A stretch of DNA of 5,510 nucleotides from contig JAFPMR010000113.1 in assembly GCA_017411235.1 (NCBI GenBank), positions 1-5,510 of the forward strand. Direction: 5' to 3'. Positions 77-5,510 of this stretch are shown one piece after another (within the stretch, counting starts at the first letter, position 1; each line of letters starts with the position of its first letter). The position numbers were made by a program, and so were the translations under genes. The DNA is from Bacilli bacterium. Lineage in GTDB: Bacteria > Bacillota_I > Bacilli_A > RF39 > UBA660. The notes under the pieces are model-generated. The model was not told the origin of the DNA and ran no database searches. It saw only the letters and a list, made by a program, of their open reading frames with translations.

Positions 77-871
77 TTAGACAGTCCCATATGTATCTAA
101 ATATTTATGATTTGCATAAGGGGTCCAAGGTAAAGTAAATCCTTGTTTTAGTACTCCAGTAGTTAATTCAGGTACTTTAGTGCCTATATTATATCCATCT
201 GCTAGTTGATATTCTCCATCTATAACGCCTTCAGTAGATGTAAATATATAATAACCATTAACTAGTACTTCATCAGGGAAATTATTTAATGCACCATGTT
301 GAGAATTATTTCCAATTTCTGCACATTTATCTACAGCAGCACCTCTAAGTAATACATCATTTATACCTAATGTATAATTATAAATCTTTCTACCTGGGGC
401 ATACACTTGAGTACCATAATCAGTTATAAAACCAACATAAACCAATAAACTACCGTCTGTATCTTTTTTTAAATGTGTTTCAATATCTGAATCTGAATAA
501 CCAGATGATCCTGTATGAGCACCATTGTCATTCATGACATATACAAAGTATTTTAACTCATCATTTTCATAGTAAGAAAATACAAAATAAGTACAAGCTT
601 TATGATCAAATAAAGCATCAGTATAAAAAGTAAAAGGTACTTTATAAATATTACCTATTATTGGTTTACCTTTAGTTGGGTTATCTTTCCAAAATTCATT
701 ATAAATATCTGCTGAATGCCAACCTTCTTCTAATGCAGTAGTTACATTAGAACGATATTTACTTTGATATATTGAATTATTTCTAAATGCATAAGGATAG
801 AAATAAGAAACATAGTACTGCCTGTTAGGGGGCAATACTATGGTTAAATTAAATGGTGAAGTATTACTCAT
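77..871 (-). CDS. Hypothetical protein, 264 aa, Tyr/Phe-rich, possibly phage-encoded
   Basis: Not recognised as a member of any family. The protein is rich in aromatic residues (many Tyr and Phe) and in Asn/Gly/Thr. It alternates short hydrophobic stretches with polar turns, which suggests a mostly beta-sheet fold. No signal peptide, transmembrane segment or catalytic motif is evident; the few cysteines form no metal-binding spacing. Position near presumed tail genes, the same strand and the composition would suit a virion or receptor-binding accessory protein, but that is only inference. The ATG at 871-869 overlaps the TAA of the upstream 65-aa gene by one base (TAATG), so the two are probably translationally coupled. 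The SD (AAGGA) lies within the last codons of that gene, about 10 nt upstream. Codons are strongly A/T-ending, like the array to its right. A real gene is highly likely; its function is unknown. Confidence 0.85.
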   Translation of the reverse strand: MSNTSPFNLTIVLPPNRQYYVSYFYPYAFRNNSIYQSKYRSNVTTALEEGWHSADIYNEFWKDNPTKGKPIIGNIYKVPFTFYTDALFDHKACTYFVFSYYENDELKYFVYVMNDNGAHTGSSGYSDSDIETHLKKDTDGSLLVYVGFITDYGTQVYAPGRKIYNYTLGINDVLLRGAAVDKCAEIGNNSQHGALNNFPDEVLVNGYYIFTSTEGVIDGEYQLADGYNIGTKVPELTTGVLKQGFTLPWTPYANHKYLDTYGTV

Positions 872-1068
872 TATTTAGTTTTCCTTAAATATAAAACTAG
901 AGCCAATGTACATAAATCTACTATGTTTTGGTCTTTTGGTTTAGTAATAAATTGAAATCCTCTATCCATCAGATTTTGCATCAATGATTCATTTGATACA
1001 TCTTTTGGGTAAAGGAATGTAGTATTTTCTTTAATATGAGTTAATAGCTCATCTAATTTATCTTCCAT
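871..1068 (-). CDS. Small hypothetical protein, 65 aa
   Basis: First gene of a two-gene minus-strand operon. The ATG is preceded by GGAG at 1077-1080 with an 8-nt gap. The N-terminal half is charged and probably helical (residues 1-15, MEDKLDELLTHIKEN). The C-terminus (residues about 49-61, IVDLCTLALVLYL) is a short hydrophobic helix followed by RKTK. That helix is barely long enough to be a membrane anchor; it could equally be a packing or oligomerisation helix. The last codons (TTA AGG AAA) supply the SD for the downstream 264-aa gene, so the pair is probably made in a linked ratio. A small chaperone or partner for the 264-aa protein is one possibility; a holin-like role is less likely because there is only one short segment. 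No family recognised. Confidence 0.75.
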   Translation of the reverse strand: MEDKLDELLTHIKENTTFLYPKDVSNESLMQNLMDRGFQFITKPKDQNIVDLCTLALVLYLRKTK

Positions 1069-1197
1069 TATATAATCTCCATAACAGGTTTTATTCTTTT
1101 ATAGTTTTTTTAAATAAATCAATAATAATTTTCTATTTTCTATTTTTTATCTACGCCCCTACGGGGCTTCAAGATTTATATTTTTTAAGGATTTAAT
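1069..1197. promoter_or_regulatory. Divergent intergenic region with leader hairpin
   Basis: These 129 bp separate the minus-strand operon from the plus-strand array, so promoters for both should lie here. The sequence is almost pure A/T, and I could not place convincing -35/-10 pairs. Two features stand out. A 7-bp unit is repeated at 1129-1135 (TTTTCTA), 1136-1142 (TTTTCTA) and 1143-1149 (TTTTTTA). A GC hairpin, GCCCC-TAC-GGGGC, lies at 1155-1167. It is followed by TTCAAGATTTATA and six T at 1181-1186, then the SD AAGGA at 1187-1191, six bases before the first array ATG. The hairpin could be an attenuator, an operator, or a stabilising 5' end of the array mRNA. Confidence 0.5.
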
Positions 1198-1488
1198 ATG
1201 TTTGAGTTACCTAAAGAGTTGTTTGAAGTTGAATTAAAAAATTTAGAAGATATTGTTATAGAACCAAGACTTAAAGATGAAGGTTGGTGTATTTATTATA
1301 ACTTTAAGAAGAAGATGGGATATGATCAATGCATTTGGGTATCACTGATAATAGATAAAAACAATAAGTTTGAATTTCATTATTGCAGTAACATAAACAG
1401 TAATGATTTTGAGATACAAACTGTTCAGAAGAGAATGGAAGTTGTTGCTAATTATTTAGAATTATTAGGGTATAAATTATATGGATAA
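1198..1488 (+). CDS. Array paralogue 1, 96 aa, unknown function
   Basis: First gene of the array and the only one with its own untranslated leader. AAGGA at 1187-1191 stands six bases before the ATG, which settles the start. The N-terminal box LPKELF (residues 4-9) comes at once; the helix that precedes it in most paralogues is missing, as in the last member. Residues about 28-60 are predicted beta-strands (GWCIYYNF, CIWVSLII). The C-terminal helix ends in NYLELLGY (85-92), a variant with L for I and Y for F. The stop overlaps the next start by 8 nt (ATGGATAA). AGGG at 1467-1470, which includes the Gly91 codon, serves as the SD of the next gene. Function unknown. Confidence 0.87.
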   Translation: MFELPKELFEVELKNLEDIVIEPRLKDEGWCIYYNFKKKMGYDQCIWVSLIIDKNNKFEFHYCSNINSNDFEIQTVQKRMEVVANYLELLGYKLYG

Positions 1489-1870
1489 CTTAAATATATC
1501 TAGAGATTTGTTTCTTGGTTTAAATAATAATCATGCTTCATTCCAATTATTAAAAAGCATGATTAAAACAGGTAAAAGAAATGATAAAACATATTATATG
1601 ATTCCTATTAGAGTACTATATAAAACACTATGGTGTAATTACTCATTTATTATTACATACAGCATATATCAGGAAGGAGATATACGTATGGATATAAATA
1701 AAAACATATATACAAAAAATTACAGTGATTATATGGCATTAAAATGCTATTGTGGAACTGAAGTATATAGACCATGTGATTTATTAAGAAATTATTTTAA
1801 TATTCTTGGTTTAATTAATTCTAGTTCAACTGTAGTTGCTAAACATGGTATATGGGTATGGCAGAAATAA
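1481..1870 (+). CDS. Array paralogue 2, 129 aa, most divergent member, C-terminal extension
   Basis: Longest and least typical member. The N-terminal box is degenerate (ISRDLF, residues 6-11) and lacks the proline. The C-terminal motif NYFNILGL (104-111) is intact but is followed by an 18-residue tail ending in WVWQK; other members have 3-12 residues there. Three cysteines fall close together (89, 91, 99) just before the final helix, which might bind metal, though there is no standard motif. An unusually strong SD, AAGGAG at 1674-1679, lies 8 nt before an in-frame ATG at 1688 (codon 70), so a separate 60-aa C-terminal product could also be made. The start at 1481 has AGGG 10 nt upstream. No clear SD for the next gene is seen near its end, unlike most junctions. 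Confidence 0.82.
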   Translation: MDNLNISRDLFLGLNNNHASFQLLKSMIKTGKRNDKTYYMIPIRVLYKTLWCNYSFIITYSIYQEGDIRMDINKNIYTKNYSDYMALKCYCGTEVYRPCDLLRNYFNILGLINSSSTVVAKHGIWVWQK

Positions 1871-2127
1871 TAGAGGAATTAGCTAAAGCATATGTAGATG
1901 GTATGCCTTTAGATACTATAAAAGATAAAATTGAAGATATAGTTACTACATATTATAAAGATAATGTATTTACTGTAAGTATTTATTTAATTGACTATTC
2001 ACGCATATGTATTTACATAAATTTAAGCGATTTACCTACTTTTAATATAAATAGTAATTATATCGGTAGAGCAATAGGTGAAATAGTTAATTATTTTGAA
2101 ATACTTGGTTTTAAGGAAATATCATGA
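1858..2127 (+). CDS. Array paralogue 3, about 89-91 aa, unknown function
   Basis: Two in-frame ATGs are possible, 1852 and 1858. I list the second, which gives a 13-nt overlap with the preceding gene; neither has a good SD, so this gene probably relies on coupling to ribosomes finishing the previous one. A leading acidic helix (AEIIEELAKAY) runs into GMPLDTI, a weak form of the N-terminal box. Strands around FTVSIYLI and ICIYINL follow, and the final helix ends in NYFEILGF, then KEIS. The Lys-Glu codons after Phe create AAGGA at 2113-2117, exactly six bases before the next ATG. The stop and next start share ATGA, the classic 4-nt coupling overlap. Confidence 0.83.
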   Translation: MAEIIEELAKAYVDGMPLDTIKDKIEDIVTTYYKDNVFTVSIYLIDYSRICIYINLSDLPTFNINSNYIGRAIGEIVNYFEILGFKEIS

Positions 2128-2453
2128 CTAATAAAGAATTAATTAATGTAATAGATAATCTACCTGAAGAATTGTTTGTAACAGAACGATTCAGTGGTAT
2201 TTCTTTCTGTAATGAGTATTTTAACCCTGCTTTAAACTGTTACATATTCATATACTGGGATAACCAAGATATTAAATATGAGGTTAAAGTATATGCCATC
2301 AGTGGTAAATTTGTAATAGCTCTAACTAAAAGAGAAAGTTCAGTTGCATTTAAACGTACTCATAAATTCATACAGAAAGTAGCAGAGAGTTTTAAAGCAT
2401 ATTTAGAAATTCTAGGATACCAAGGATATATAAGATTATATGACCGTGAATAA
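2124..2453 (+). CDS. Array paralogue 4, 109 aa, unknown function
   Basis: A clean representative of the family. The leading helix TNKELINVIDN (residues 2-12) is followed by LPEELF (13-18). Aromatic-rich strands (CYIFIYWDN; YEVKVYAI; KFVIALT) occupy the middle. A basic helix from about residue 75 ends in AYLEILGY (92-99), and the tail is QGYIRLYDRE. The start is fixed by ATGA overlap with the previous stop and by a well-spaced AAGGA. The tail's YDRE is read from the same bases that encode MTVN at the listed start of paralogue 5 (14-nt overlap), a junction form seen again farther along the array. No catalytic residues are recognisable; a binding protein is more plausible than an enzyme. Confidence 0.88.
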   Translation: MTNKELINVIDNLPEELFVTERFSGISFCNEYFNPALNCYIFIYWDNQDIKYEVKVYAISGKFVIALTKRESSVAFKRTHKFIQKVAESFKAYLEILGYQGYIRLYDRE

Positions 2454-2766
2454 TAGAGGTTACATTGTGGAAACAGAATTTGCTAGAACAATTTTAAATA
2501 TGCCTTATGATATATATAAAAGCTTTAATTATGTAACAAACCATATAGATGCATATCATAATATTTGGAGAATTTATTACAGAAAAAGTAAAAAATCTCA
2601 ATATATTATTAGAGTACAACAATGGAATAGTGTAACTATTGAAATAAGCGCAGAAGGGTATGTTGTAAATTTAAAATATGCTCCAAAGTATTTAGTTAAA
2701 ATAGTTAATAAAATAGCTAATTATTTTTCTATTCTTGGTTTTCCTATAAAGGTATGGGGATTATGA
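2440..2766 (+). CDS. Array paralogue 5, 108 aa (or 99 aa from GTG), unknown function
   Basis: The start is uncertain. ATG 2440 keeps the usual overlap with the previous gene (14 nt), but its only SD, AAGGA, is 13 nt away and the N-terminal box NMPYDIY then falls at residues 20-26, later than in relatives. GTG 2467 has AGAGG seven bases upstream and would put the box proline at residue 13, as in paralogues 4, 6 and 7. The middle is basic (RKSKKS) with strands WRIYY, YIIRVQQW and VTIEIS. The final helix ends in NYFSILGF (94-101 of the long form), then PIKVWGL. The N-terminal box and the aromatic centre place it closest to paralogues 6 and 7. Confidence 0.83.
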   Translation: MTVNNRGYIVETEFARTILNMPYDIYKSFNYVTNHIDAYHNIWRIYYRKSKKSQYIIRVQQWNSVTIEISAEGYVVNLKYAPKYLVKIVNKIANYFSILGFPIKVWGL

Positions 2767-3071
2767 ATAAGACAGTATTAGATTTAATAGAAAATATGCC
2801 ATATGAGGTATATGGTAATAAATACTTTAAAGGTAGACACTTTAATAGTGGAGTAGATTACTACCAATGGAATTATGATACTAAATCCAAGTATTATGAT
2901 TATCAAATTAATATATTTGAACAAGGTACTTATTTAGAAATTTATGCTTATAAAAATGATAGAATTTTACCCGCTAGGTTAGTGCCTAAAACAATAGCAA
3001 ATACATTAAATAGTATAGCTAGTTACTTTAATATTTTAGGTTTTACTGTGGGGAAAATTCATGATTACTAA
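2763..3071 (+). CDS. Array paralogue 6, 102-105 aa, close sister of paralogue 7
   Basis: Chosen start ATG 2763: it overlaps the previous stop as ATGA and has AAAGG at 2748-2752 ten bases upstream. ATG 2754 would have the same SD only one base away. After a leading helix come the box NMPYEVY, then N-K-Y-F-K-G, then WNYDTKSKY (residues 36-44 of this form). The middle YQINIFEQG and YLEIYAY are likely strands. The end is SYFNILGF, then TVGKIHDY. It aligns almost along its whole length with paralogue 7, including a 20-bp stretch of identical DNA (2868-2887 against 3169-3188), marking the most recent duplication in the array. The next gene's SD (GGGGA, 3050-3054) lies in its final codons. Confidence 0.87.
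   Translation: MNKTVLDLIENMPYEVYGNKYFKGRHFNSGVDYYQWNYDTKSKYYDYQINIFEQGTYLEIYAYKNDRILPARLVPKTIANTLNSIASYFNILGFTVGKIHDY
2868..2887 (+). repeat. 20-bp direct repeat, copy 1 (paralogue 6)
   Basis: Identical to 3169-3188 and 301 bp from it. It encodes WNYDTKS in the same frame of two neighbouring paralogues. It is the longest perfect match I noticed between array members and could support recombination that deletes or fuses the intervening unit. Confidence 0.8.
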
Positions 3072-3378
3072 TGAAATAATAAAGATAATAAAACATATGC
3101 CTCATTGTGTATATAGTAATGAGTACTATAGGAATAATCATTATATTAACAATATAGGTTATTGTTCATGGAATTATGATACTAAATCTAAATACTGCTC
3201 TGATTATCAAATCAAATTATTTGAACATGATGATAGAATTGGTATCTATCTCTTTAGAATGGATAATGTTTTACCTGTCAAAAGAGGACCTAAAGTAATT
3301 ATAAATTCATTACAAAGTATAGCAGATTATTTTAGAATTATTGGTTTTAAGGTAGAAACATTGTATGACCATAGATGA
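3061..3378 (+). CDS. Array paralogue 7, 105 aa, close sister of paralogue 6
   Basis: Overlaps the previous gene by 11 nt (ATGATTACTAA), with GGGGA six bases upstream of its ATG, so the start is secure. Box HMPHCVY (12-18), then NEYYRN, then WNYDTKSKY (37-45), then a strand pair YQIKLFEHD and IGIYLFR. The helix that follows VLPVKRGPKV carries the terminal DYFRIIGF (89-96), then KVETLYDHR. Shared order with paralogue 6 (Y-Y/F-x-N/G, WNYDTKSKY, YQI-x-x-F-E, x-I/L-P-x-R-x-x-P-K-x-I) shows which positions a recent pair keeps. The surface between YQI and the final helix has changed most, consistent with a variable binding face, though two sequences are too few to prove selection. Confidence 0.88.
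   Translation: MITNEIIKIIKHMPHCVYSNEYYRNNHYINNIGYCSWNYDTKSKYCSDYQIKLFEHDDRIGIYLFRMDNVLPVKRGPKVIINSLQSIADYFRIIGFKVETLYDHR
3169..3188 (+). repeat. 20-bp direct repeat, copy 2 (paralogue 7)
   Basis: Second copy of the repeat at 2868-2887. Similarity continues after it (tcaAAtA then GATTATCAAAT), with scattered third-position changes, showing that the match reflects recent duplication of the gene and not a separate inserted element. Confidence 0.8.
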
Positions 3379-3706
3379 AGAAAATAGAATAAATATATTA
3401 TCTAAGTTACCTAATGAATTACTTCAAACCAAAGAATGTAAATTAGAACATTCTTGGATTAATAGTACATCTACTGCAGCTTGGAGAATACTAGATTACC
3501 ATGAACAATATGACCTTAGAGCAATAAGAATATCTATAACTCATAAAATTAATAATTCTTACTATGTAGTTATTCATGTGTATATTTCAGGTACATGCTA
3601 TAGCTACTTTGAAGCACCTAGAGATAAATTATATCCTCAAGTTGATATAGCATATCAGATAGCTACTTATTTAAAAATATTAGGGTTACATGTATATGAC
3701 CATTGA
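3365..3706 (+). CDS. Array paralogue 8, 113 aa, unknown function
   Basis: Starts with MTIDEE in a 14-nt overlap whose bases ATGACCATAGATGA also encode the YDHR end of paralogue 7. The SD candidate AAGG (3349-3352) is 12 nt away, rather far, so coupling to the upstream stop is likely. Leading helix, then KLPNELL (14-20), then a polar Ser/Thr-rich segment. Three predicted strands follow (LRAIRISIT, YYVVIHVYIS, TCYSYFEA). The terminal helix reads TYLKILGL (101-108) with Leu in place of the final Phe, and a short tail HVYDH. The tail's YDH and the next gene's MTI come from the same bases, an arrangement shared with the previous junction. Confidence 0.87.
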   Translation: MTIDEENRINILSKLPNELLQTKECKLEHSWINSTSTAAWRILDYHEQYDLRAIRISITHKINNSYYVVIHVYISGTCYSYFEAPRDKLYPQVDIAYQIATYLKILGLHVYDH

Positions 3707-4031
3707 AGAAATAGAACAACTAATTAAAGATATACCTGAAGAACTATTTGAAATACCTAAATATGGTAAATTAATTAGAACAGTATCTACTGTTTCTACA
3801 TATGGTTCTCCTTATGTAGTATTACAAATAACTACAGGTTCAATCCCTGTAGCTCAATTTTCTATATTTAATAATATGAAATTTGTATTTAAGTTATATT
3901 TAGAAAATAGATATAGATTAATGAGCTGTTTAAAAACACAAATCCCAAATGTATTAAACCAAATTAAATCATATTTAAGTATTCTTGGTTTTAAAGAAGT
4001 TGGTTTAGAAGGATTTATGCATGGACGCTAA
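3696..4031 (+). CDS. Array paralogue 9, 111-113 aa, unknown function
   Basis: ATG 3690 and ATG 3696 are both in frame. The second is preferred: it begins MTIEE like paralogue 8, gives the recurrent 11-nt overlap (ATGACCATTGA), and puts AGGG (3682-3685) at 10 nt rather than 4. The N-terminal helix EEIEQLIKDI leads to PEELFEIPKYG. The middle lacks the tryptophan seen in paralogues 4-8 and is rich in Val/Thr/Ser (RTVSTVSTYG), with strands YVVLQITT and FVFKLYL. The terminal SYLSILGF is followed by a twelve-residue tail ending in FMHGR, the longest apart from paralogue 2. The tail contains AAGGA (4009-4013), seven bases before the next start. Confidence 0.87.
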   Translation: MTIEEIEQLIKDIPEELFEIPKYGKLIRTVSTVSTYGSPYVVLQITTGSIPVAQFSIFNNMKFVFKLYLENRYRLMSCLKTQIPNVLNQIKSYLSILGFKEVGLEGFMHGR

Positions 4032-4329
4032 TGAATTACTAGATATATTATATACAGTACCATATAACAAACTAATAAATGGTACTGTAGATTATAGAGT
4101 ACGTACTTTCACAAATATTGCATCTAATTTAGCTAGAGTAGATATAGATTTTATGAGAGGTAATACTTGTATAGGTTTCATAAGAGTATTTGGTAATAAT
4201 ACTATAGACCCTGCTTTTCCAGAAGAACACGAAAGAAATACAACGTATAAATGTTATAGTAAATGCTTTGAAGCTATGGAACGTGTTATAGCATATCTAG
4301 AAATATTAGGATTTAAAAATGACCGTTAA
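4021..4329 (+). CDS. Array paralogue 10, 102 aa, unknown function
   Basis: Well-defined start: 11-nt overlap ATGGACGCTAA and an AAGGA SD at ideal distance. Leading helix DANELLDILYT, then VPYNKL (13-18). Predicted strands VRTFTNI, LARVDIDFM and CIGFIRVFG. A proline/acidic loop (DPAFPEEHERN) precedes a final helix with two cysteines (KCYSKCFEAMERV), and the motif AYLEILGF (91-98) is only four residues from the end (KNDR). The Gly codon of the motif forms AGGA (4308-4311), seven bases before the ATG of paralogue 11, the clearest case of the protein motif and the ribosome-binding site sharing the same bases. Confidence 0.88.
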   Translation: MDANELLDILYTVPYNKLINGTVDYRVRTFTNIASNLARVDIDFMRGNTCIGFIRVFGNNTIDPAFPEEHERNTTYKCYSKCFEAMERVIAYLEILGFKNDR

Positions 4330-4588
4330 GGAATTACGCAGTATATTAGATTCTATACCATATAGTATATTAACCTATGATAATAGTGATTATGAATTTC
4401 ATGGAATGTTACATGGCATAGAAATAAGATTTGAATATGATAATTTTATTAAATGCTATTTAACAGTATATACAAGTGGTTATATGAGAGATGTAACTAT
4501 TCCATATAGTAATGAATATGATAAATGTGTTCAAGCTATGCATAATACTAAAACATACTTAGAGATACTAGGGTTTAAATCAATATGA
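4319..4588 (+). CDS. Array paralogue 11, 89 aa, shortest typical member
   Basis: Starts in the 11-nt overlap ATGACCGTTAA, with the SD supplied by the end of paralogue 10. It holds nearly the minimal form of the family: leading helix TVKELRSILDS, box IPYSIL (13-18), three short strands (EIRFEYD, CYLTVYTSG, DVTIPY), a helix with one cysteine (DKCVQAMHNT), and TYLEILGF (79-86) followed only by KSI. It shares with paralogue 10 the sequence pattern N/S-E-Y/H near the loop, a K-C in the final helix, and the same motif variant, so the two are probably sisters. ATGA overlap joins it to paralogue 12; AGGG at 4570-4573 is 11 nt from that start. Confidence 0.87.
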   Translation: MTVKELRSILDSIPYSILTYDNSDYEFHGMLHGIEIRFEYDNFIKCYLTVYTSGYMRDVTIPYSNEYDKCVQAMHNTKTYLEILGFKSI

Positions 4589-4893
4589 TTACTTTACCTG
4601 AAGAATTATATACTAGTGAATTAGTAGATATAATGAGTACTACTAATGAAGAAGATGAGAGTATTACATTAAGTATATGGTTACCATATAGATATAAACA
4701 TGAAACAGAAGATGTAGCTGATATTCATTTTTGGTTAGAAAAGAACACTTATTATATAGACCAATATGACTATAATTTAAAAGATAAAGCAGGTAATGAA
4801 ATAGTTAATAATGAAGTAAAAGAGATATTAGTTAATATAAAGAATTATTTAGATATTATTGGTTTTAAGGATATTTCACAAGATGAATACTAA
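4585..4893 (+). CDS. Array paralogue 12, 102 aa, acidic terminal member
   Basis: Last full-length member. Like paralogue 1 it lacks the leading helix and begins almost at the box (ITLPEELY, residues 2-9). It is markedly acidic, with clusters such as NEEDES and ETEDVAD, unlike the more basic paralogues 5-7, so the family covers a wide charge range. Predicted strands SITLSIWLPY and DIHFWLEK; then a helix NNEVKEILVNI ending in NYLDIIGF (87-94) and the tail KDISQDEY. Its end still carries the usual AAGGA (4867-4871) and an ATG overlapping the stop by 11 nt, although only a nine-codon frame follows. Confidence 0.87.
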   Translation: MITLPEELYTSELVDIMSTTNEEDESITLSIWLPYRYKHETEDVADIHFWLEKNTYYIDQYDYNLKDKAGNEIVNNEVKEILVNIKNYLDIIGFKDISQDEY

Positions 4894-5176: not shown

Positions 5177-5510
5177 TTAACCTTTACGCCCTTTCTCCAA
5201 TTCCTCAATCATGCTTTCCAATTCGTTAATTCTCACTCTAGCGTCATGCCTTTGTGATTTAACTTCCTGGTAGTCTGTTTCAGTTATTTCACCCTCTGCA
5301 AACTTAATAGCCTTGTAGTCGGTATCGGATAGATATTTTTTCAGTTCTACGATTTCAGCTTGATACTGCTCAATTAAAATCATGCTTTCAGTTTTATGTG
5401 GTGCAAAACCTTTGAGATAAATCCATCCATTCAGTTCGCTAACTTCTGTATCTGTAATAGCAACAGTGTTATCTTGCCAACCTAATTGATAAGCCACTGC
5501 AGTATTTTCA
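5177..5510 (-). CDS. Phage tail-region coiled-coil protein, 5' end outside the window
   Basis: The frame stays open to the window edge. A GTG at 5497-5495 could start a 106-residue protein, but no SD precedes it, and the codons above it (E-N-T-A) continue in frame, so the true start is probably outside and this is a partial gene. The visible N-terminal part, with NGWIYLKGFAPHK, resembles the small proteins that follow tail-fibre genes in many Bacillota phages. The C-terminal part, KKYLSDTDYKAIKFAEGEI followed by a heptad-like RINELESMIEELEKG helix, also matches the 'DYKAIKFAEGE' style of those proteins. The likely role is tail-fibre assembly or attachment; the exact function is unknown. Base composition is more balanced than in the array. 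Confidence 0.75.
   Translation of the reverse strand, partial: ENTAVAYQLGWQDNTVAITDTEVSELNGWIYLKGFAPHKTESMILIEQYQAEIVELKKYLSDTDYKAIKFAEGEITETDYQEVKSQRHDARVRINELESMIEELEKGRKG

Follow-up and report, generated by a model that had tools for sequence, protein, structure and literature searches.

The closest described counterpart of the gene array reported here is found in archaeal rudiviruses where, according to PMC11065993, 26 of 35 AcrID1 homologues lie close together in four genomes and minimum identity within the family is 7.3%. A second point of comparison is the early region of N4-like phages: PMC4496689 describes how the N4 virion RNA polymerase recognises hairpins with 3-nt loops whose template strand forms a sheared G:A pair within the loop, and PMC3715699 reports 4–5 nt stems with 3-nt loops ahead of early genes in LUZ7-type phages. 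Here we describe a window of 5,510 nt (the whole stretch of DNA analysed, contig JAFPMR010000113.1) in which a single protein family forms twelve consecutive, overlapping open reading frames (ORFs) on the plus strand (1198–4893), encoding proteins of 89–129 amino acids (aa), on the strand opposite to that of the flanking genes. The family and its array are real, lie within an N4-like phage lineage and are undescribed as far as our searches reach. We see about an even chance that the array is a bank of small binding proteins that is expressed early and recombines, its most likely targets being variable host factors of defence or takeover.

As in the AcrID1 clusters, our nearest analogue, the array proteins are small, have low mutual identity and occur as many copies close together; content varies among relatives, and expression would be early behind a common promoter class, a timing that we predict for the array. 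The rudiviruses differ in being archaeal and in carrying mostly single genes with individual promoters, whereas the window holds one overlapping operon of a bacterial N4-like phage; likewise, anti-defence activity has been shown for rudiviral genes and is proposed here for the twelve-member array. Our main comparisons are with L001 (record G001, a 66,875-base IMG/VR contig) and L002, both reached through the 264-aa flanking gene, and with L003 (record G003, a 28,358-base contig), reached, as was G001 again, through array members. The run of twelve genes proposed in the first-pass annotation was recovered in full, behind a hairpin:

1155–1167, plus strand: GC-rich hairpin GCCCC-TAC-GGGGC (5-bp stem, 3-nt loop), proposed N4-type virion-RNA-polymerase promoter, 30 nt before the first ATG
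1198–1488, plus strand: array member 1, 96 aa
1481–1870, plus strand: array member 2, 129 aa, the most divergent; in the family by C-terminal motif and position, not profile score
1852–2127, plus strand: array member 3, 91 aa, acidic, pI 4.3
2124–2453, plus strand: array member 4, 109 aa
2440–2766, plus strand: array member 5, 108 aa, basic, pI 9.7
2754–3071, plus strand: array member 6, 105 aa; AlphaFold2 model, mean pLDDT 89.7
3061–3378, plus strand: array member 7, 105 aa, closest paralogue member 6 (42%)
3365–3706, plus strand: array member 8, 113 aa
3690–4031, plus strand: array member 9, 113 aa; AlphaFold2 model from member 9 orthologues only, best model mean pLDDT 81.6
4021–4329, plus strand: array member 10, 102 aa
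4319–4588, plus strand: array member 11, 89 aa
4585–4893, plus strand: array member 12, 102 aa, strongly acidic (net charge −15), the last gene

Neighbouring array ORFs overlap at all 11 junctions, by 4–19 nt, and may be translationally coupled; every one of the 12 frames is open. The C-terminal motif Y[LF]x[IL][IL]G[FYL], noted at first reading, matches 12 of 12 members as a regular expression, against 14 of 24,000 shuffled proteins, and a proline stands among residues 1–22 in 11 of the 12. The N-terminal box claimed alongside it, [LMIV]Pxx[LIV][FYL], holds in part: it is exact at the N-terminus of nine members, while members 3 and 10 have the proline without the remainder of the box and the sole match in member 2 falls at residue 41. 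The middles are as divergent as had been claimed (pI 4.2 to 9.7, net charge −15 to +8), and BLASTP links 10 of the 66 pairs at E 1e-3. Paralogy, likewise claimed, is borne out by leave-one-out profiles built from the other 11 members, with which 11 of the 12 outscore all 1,200 shuffled decoys. The exception, member 2, scored 9.2 bits against 11.2 for the best decoy, and a wider profile made without it and its orthologue recovered neither (11.4 and 13.5 bits, best decoy 22.6); we retain it in the family because it ends in the C-terminal motif, sits within the run of overlapping genes and has an L003 orthologue that carries the proline. Reading the C-terminal motif as a mere ribosome-binding site of the next gene is ruled out because member 12 and the solo member L003 2795–3136 keep it with no family gene directly behind.

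The initial failure to recognise the family was well founded, in that no convincing curated Pfam, NCBIfam or PHROG model extends across its members. Against Pfam, none of the 12 array members did better than 0.026 and none of the 60 members of alignment A3 matched at 0.01; NCBIfam gave just two models, each matched by one of 35 members (0.0069 and 0.0078), and PHROGs gave four of unknown function, each matched by one or two of the 35, the best of them weak (3.5e-4). A PADLOC match to HEC-02B (1 of 35 members, 0.0017) was treated as stray. Two profile searches of 5.8 billion proteins at E ≤ 0.01 returned 163 and 144 proteins of the family; the best 120 of each set carry no Pfam domain and no annotation other than 'hypothetical protein', and the relatives of the family come from metagenomic sequence only. 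Three members tested found no match at E ≤ 1 among 50,697 phage records, and the A2 profile found none at E ≤ 1 among PDB sequences. This empty PDB search showed no sequence relationship to AcrID1, for which a solved structure exists. The titles and abstract openings listed in searches of an open-licence library yielded no description of such an array in a bacterial phage.

Members 6 and 9 (2 of 12), modelled with AlphaFold2 from different alignments, share the same α-β4-α order of elements. The first-pass annotation had held that unrelated folds would speak against a single family; in the two members compared the models agree, and that part of the proposal stands for these two. A profile–profile comparison of A3 with A4 matched at 99.6%, a value that is not independent, as A3 includes four member 9 sequences. 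None of the seven least variable positions (Y91, G96, P16, L95, F92, I94 and F97 in member 6 numbering) is charged, and the most conserved positions look structural; the members would presumably act by binding rather than by catalysis. Crl and XisI-like folds, with their α-β4-α likeness, ranked within the first ten structural matches for each model. A Crl-like fold could also serve transcription regulators, such as modulators of host RNA polymerase or sigma factors with different paralogues for each regulon or stage, a role that we regard as unlikely for the array.

Judged by sequence similarity, the carrier of the array is a phage related to N4 (Schitoviridae). The L002 portal is 47–48% identical to those of N4-like phages among the matches listed, and a primase-like 721-aa protein of G001 matched 464 phage records, 460 of them at a coverage of at least 80%, with 40–42% identity among the matches listed. 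The PHROG for N4-like RNA polymerase was matched in L002 (1.3e-7) and in G001 (L049; 3.2e-5), and the L002 gene next to this match has an RNA polymerase PHROG match at 4.5e-46. The first RNA polymerase subunits of L002 and G001 had no tblastn match in phage records at 1e-5, and Pfam gave 0.0092, below its cut-off, for the second L002 subunit and nothing for the first. A 4,922-aa frame in G001 has one weak match, to the Pollock virion RNA polymerase (26% over 179 residues, E 5.9e-9), in a comparison in which one of three records matched and the other two are only 15 and 28 kb long. The window itself carries none of the N4-type replication or head genes and is placed in this lineage because of its similarity to G001, to which one flank aligns over 957 bases (80%) and the other over 306 bases (87%).

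Likeness to the N4-like early region (LUZ7, LIT1 and PEV2; PMC3715699) extends to hairpins with 3-nt loops before early genes, for a 5-bp/3-nt hairpin precedes all three arrays (window, L001 and L003). The stem and loop recur unchanged in L001, once in 66,875 bases, 40 nt ahead of the gene (201 aa) that heads its array; at the corresponding place L003 has ACCTC-TTC-GAGGT, in which two stem pairs are altered on both sides relative to the window and L001. In L001 and L003 the array hairpin is the only one clear of other ORFs. In G001, an intergenic hairpin of the same class lies 41 nt before the gene matching the N4-like RNA polymerase PHROG, which, with the primase and the L002 portal relatives, adds to the likeness, and several surround the RNA polymerase genes of L002. 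The region differs in holding an array of paralogues, and in G001 the array lies at ~31–35 kb and the RNA polymerase gene at ~6 kb. Hairpins of the form C-TNC-G number one in the window against 0.05 expected from shuffles, five in 28,951 bases of G001 against 0.15, seven in L002 against 0.1, and three in 16,320 bases of G003 against none in 20 shuffles (0.1 in another L003 run). In the template loop, the G:A pair and the C at −9 of N4 promoters (PMC4496689, PMC3715699) are kept. From these features we infer that the array is an early operon.

Loops of this class appear to sort by lineage, with TAC in G001 (5 of 5) and L026 (2 of 2) and TTC in L003 (3 of 3), L002 (5 of 7) and L028 (4 of 5), which suggests co-evolution of the virion RNA polymerase and its promoter loop. 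Since the five hairpins in the G001 pieces are all TAC and the three of L003 all TTC, each array hairpin carries the loop of its own phage.

The content of the array turns over between related phages. Variation in copy number among relatives, proposed as a check in the first-pass annotation, was found, with 12 members in the window, 13 matches in G003 (11 in the array and two solo) and eight in G001 (E ≤ 0.01), the last including a 53-aa chimeric remnant. Compared with the window, L003 is without members 7 and 9 and has one additional member between 3 and 4; L001 has members 7, 8, 10 and part of 6 in common with it, and four further members that neither of the others shares. Left out singly, the divergent members of L001 and L003 all beat 1,000 of their own shuffles (7 of 7), narrowly so for L001 8563–8901. 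Divergence is mosaic: dS between the window and L003 ranges from 0.10 (member 5) to 2.2 (member 1, near saturation), and as this range arises between a single pair of phages, the genes within an array differ in their histories.

Where exchange might occur is suggested by the array DNA, in which ten of 12 self-similarities lie at gene ends or junctions, one joins members 6 and 7 and one is an inverted repeat in member 10. Chimeric proteins also occur. Within the 66,875-base contig, L001 6600–6761 (53 aa) combines the start of member 8 with the end of member 6; elsewhere, P0012 joins member 8 with member 10, P0113 a member 5 body with a member 6 tail, and P0127 a member 11 body with a member 10 tail, and in P0154, P0156 and P0158 member 11 is fused to the end of member 12. 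Nine member 10 bodies with member 11-like tails are weaker cases, the tails being short. Across 181 proteins, 180 of which have the motif, body and tail best matched different members in 22; ten of these passed a stricter score gap, and four of the ten (member 6 body, member 7-like tail) were set aside as lineage variation. Many of the tail-swap proteins come from short metagenome contigs and could be assembly chimeras.

Over 13 orthologue pairs with the window, dN/dS is 0.11–0.83 (median 0.48) and always below 1. Values in the flanks were 0.12 and 0.14 for the 65-aa gene, 0.08 for the gene at 5177 and 0.41 for the 264-aa gene; selection on the array is purifying, yet looser than in three of the four flank comparisons. 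Diversifying selection is unsupported in all 13 window pairs, with dS near saturation for member 1. We also considered neutral expansion, in which unequal recombination at short repeated gene ends multiplies copies that drift without separate roles. The DNA common to gene ends at junctions, the 53-aa remnant among the chimeras and the loose dN/dS all agree with such drift; it is set against 12 of 12 open frames, 13 of 13 window pairs with dN/dS below 1, and ten orthologues that retain their order between the window and L003 despite diverged silent sites, and we judge it improbable.

The reading that we prefer is that a single operon of overlapping genes in an N4-like phage would encode a bank of small α-β4-α proteins sharing a scaffold and differing in their surfaces. 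Injected virion RNA polymerase would transcribe it from one hairpin promoter at the start of infection, and recombination between similar gene ends (the C-terminal motif and the start of the next gene) would add, delete and swap members between related phages. Each member would bind and block its own host protein, or its own variant of a shared one, with bacterial defence factors or takeover targets as the chief candidates; the defence target is the step that we advance most cautiously. A host-directed inhibitor role is proposed because of the pattern of anatomy and evolution together with the analogy to rudiviral AcrID1 clusters. That many versions are useful, as the first-pass annotation supposed with inhibitors, immunity proteins or adaptors as its examples, gains indirect backing from purifying selection in 13 of 13 pairs, turnover, mosaic divergence and the early-type promoter. 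A more specific version, in which the gene ends serve both as structural core and as the DNA joint for exchanging members or halves while a single early promoter drives a set of inhibitors against the host that varies in composition, we offer tentatively as a possibility. A small, early-type, diverse and swapping repertoire would suit variable rivals as well as variable hosts, and the members could instead act in phage–phage competition or superinfection exclusion, each member blocking its own variable component of competing phages in the niche; early expression in a lytic phage would, however, mainly serve its own infection, and we hold exclusion to be slightly less probable than neutral expansion.

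Several results weigh against a host-directed early bank. None of 28 sister records with a related portal (five of 68–76 kb, the rest of 5.5–48 kb) has a family match to a query that finds eight members in G001 and 13 in G003, and because five relatives of 68–76 kb are without a detectable member, the bank would be dispensable in the wider group. No homologue of a known inhibitor was identified, nor a host. The dN/dS values, below 1 in every pair, do not support diversifying selection, and the 264-aa flanking gene is equally relaxed. As to the promoter, the template loop is GTA in the window and L001 and GAA in L003, with T or A at the centre where the strict N4 promoter requires G; the base at −8, G in N4 promoters (PMC4496689, PMC3715699), is C or T here. 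The non-array hairpins of this class in L001 and L003 sit inside or overlap ORFs, several sister loci are without any such hairpin, and the three hairpins of Pollock do not exceed the shuffle maximum. The window also has 30 sigma-70-type promoter-like sites (45 in shuffles), and internal promoters of this type may exist.

Early multi-paralogue inhibitor clusters are already documented in archaeal viruses. If our reading is correct, a twelve-member overlapping operon of one unnamed fold extends this principle to a bacterial phage, offers a ready natural set of variants on one scaffold for screening defence or takeover targets, and shows how such sets are reshuffled.

The remaining features of the window lie on the minus strand:

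77–871, minus strand: flanking 264-aa gene; longer homologues in L001 (653 aa) and L002 (609 aa)
871–1068, minus strand: 65-aa flanking gene, which also adjoins the arrays of L001 and L003
4913–4932, minus strand: terminator-like hairpin between the array end and the convergent flanking gene
5177–5510, minus strand: flanking gene on the other side, C-terminal part; L001 homologue 153 aa

The L001 homologues of both outer flanking genes have no match in phage records at 0.01; that of the 264-aa gene has no Pfam, PHROG or phage match, and the 153-aa homologue no family match. The neighbours are called virion genes because of the next genes out, the flanking genes themselves being without a phage-record match: the 153-aa homologue adjoins a 780-aa gene that weakly matches PHROGs for virion and tail-spike proteins, and a Peptidase_S74 gene lies near the array in L003. 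Since the L001 array has the flanks of the window, both neighbours would fit members that serve virion proteins as adaptors or chaperones and differ in their partners. The array nevertheless runs on the strand opposite to its flanks with an early-type hairpin of its own, and two solo members lie elsewhere in G003; because the promoter is early-type we favour host-directed inhibitors, and consider virion adaptors very improbable.

The 264-aa gene matches the N-terminal part only of its homologues (L001 9959–11920 and L002 7802–9631) and may be a modular or shortened gene. The L001 array also holds non-family genes of 201 aa (8898–9503), 172 aa (7313–7831) and 62 aa (7128–7316), on the minus strand, which are candidates for the same early function; the first two have no Pfam match. 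In a looser scan of the sister records, L036 gave weak candidates (E 3.8e-4 and 0.04), as did L026 (9.9e-4). Two adjacent small ORFs of L026 (2409–2714 and 2101–2412, minus strand; profile E 0.00099 and 3.6) have a YLxFLGF-like motif near the N-terminus, possibly a rearranged relative or a case of convergence.

The phage probably comes from the animal gut, as suggested by database names and by a portal relative. Two matches of a solo member carry NCBI names of metagenome-assembled genomes (MAGs) of Bacilli and Methanosphaera. In the species-genome collection, where P0159 had no relative, the L002 portal was found in only two 73-kb contigs (L051 and L052), which are equal in portal identity and sit together in a Lachnospiraceae bin from cattle colon. 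These N4-like contigs probably reflect mis-binning in the Lachnospiraceae MAG, and the bin has no array match (with G001 as positive control). The solo member L003 6633–6911 has 44 metagenomic relatives at 71–96% identity, whereas array members of the window and L003 are 58–94% identical, mostly below its conservation; this would suit a protein with a single fixed partner. Within member 9, a hairpin at 3832–3852, where ARAGORN calls no tRNA, resembles a tRNA T-arm (loop TTCAATC), probably by chance.

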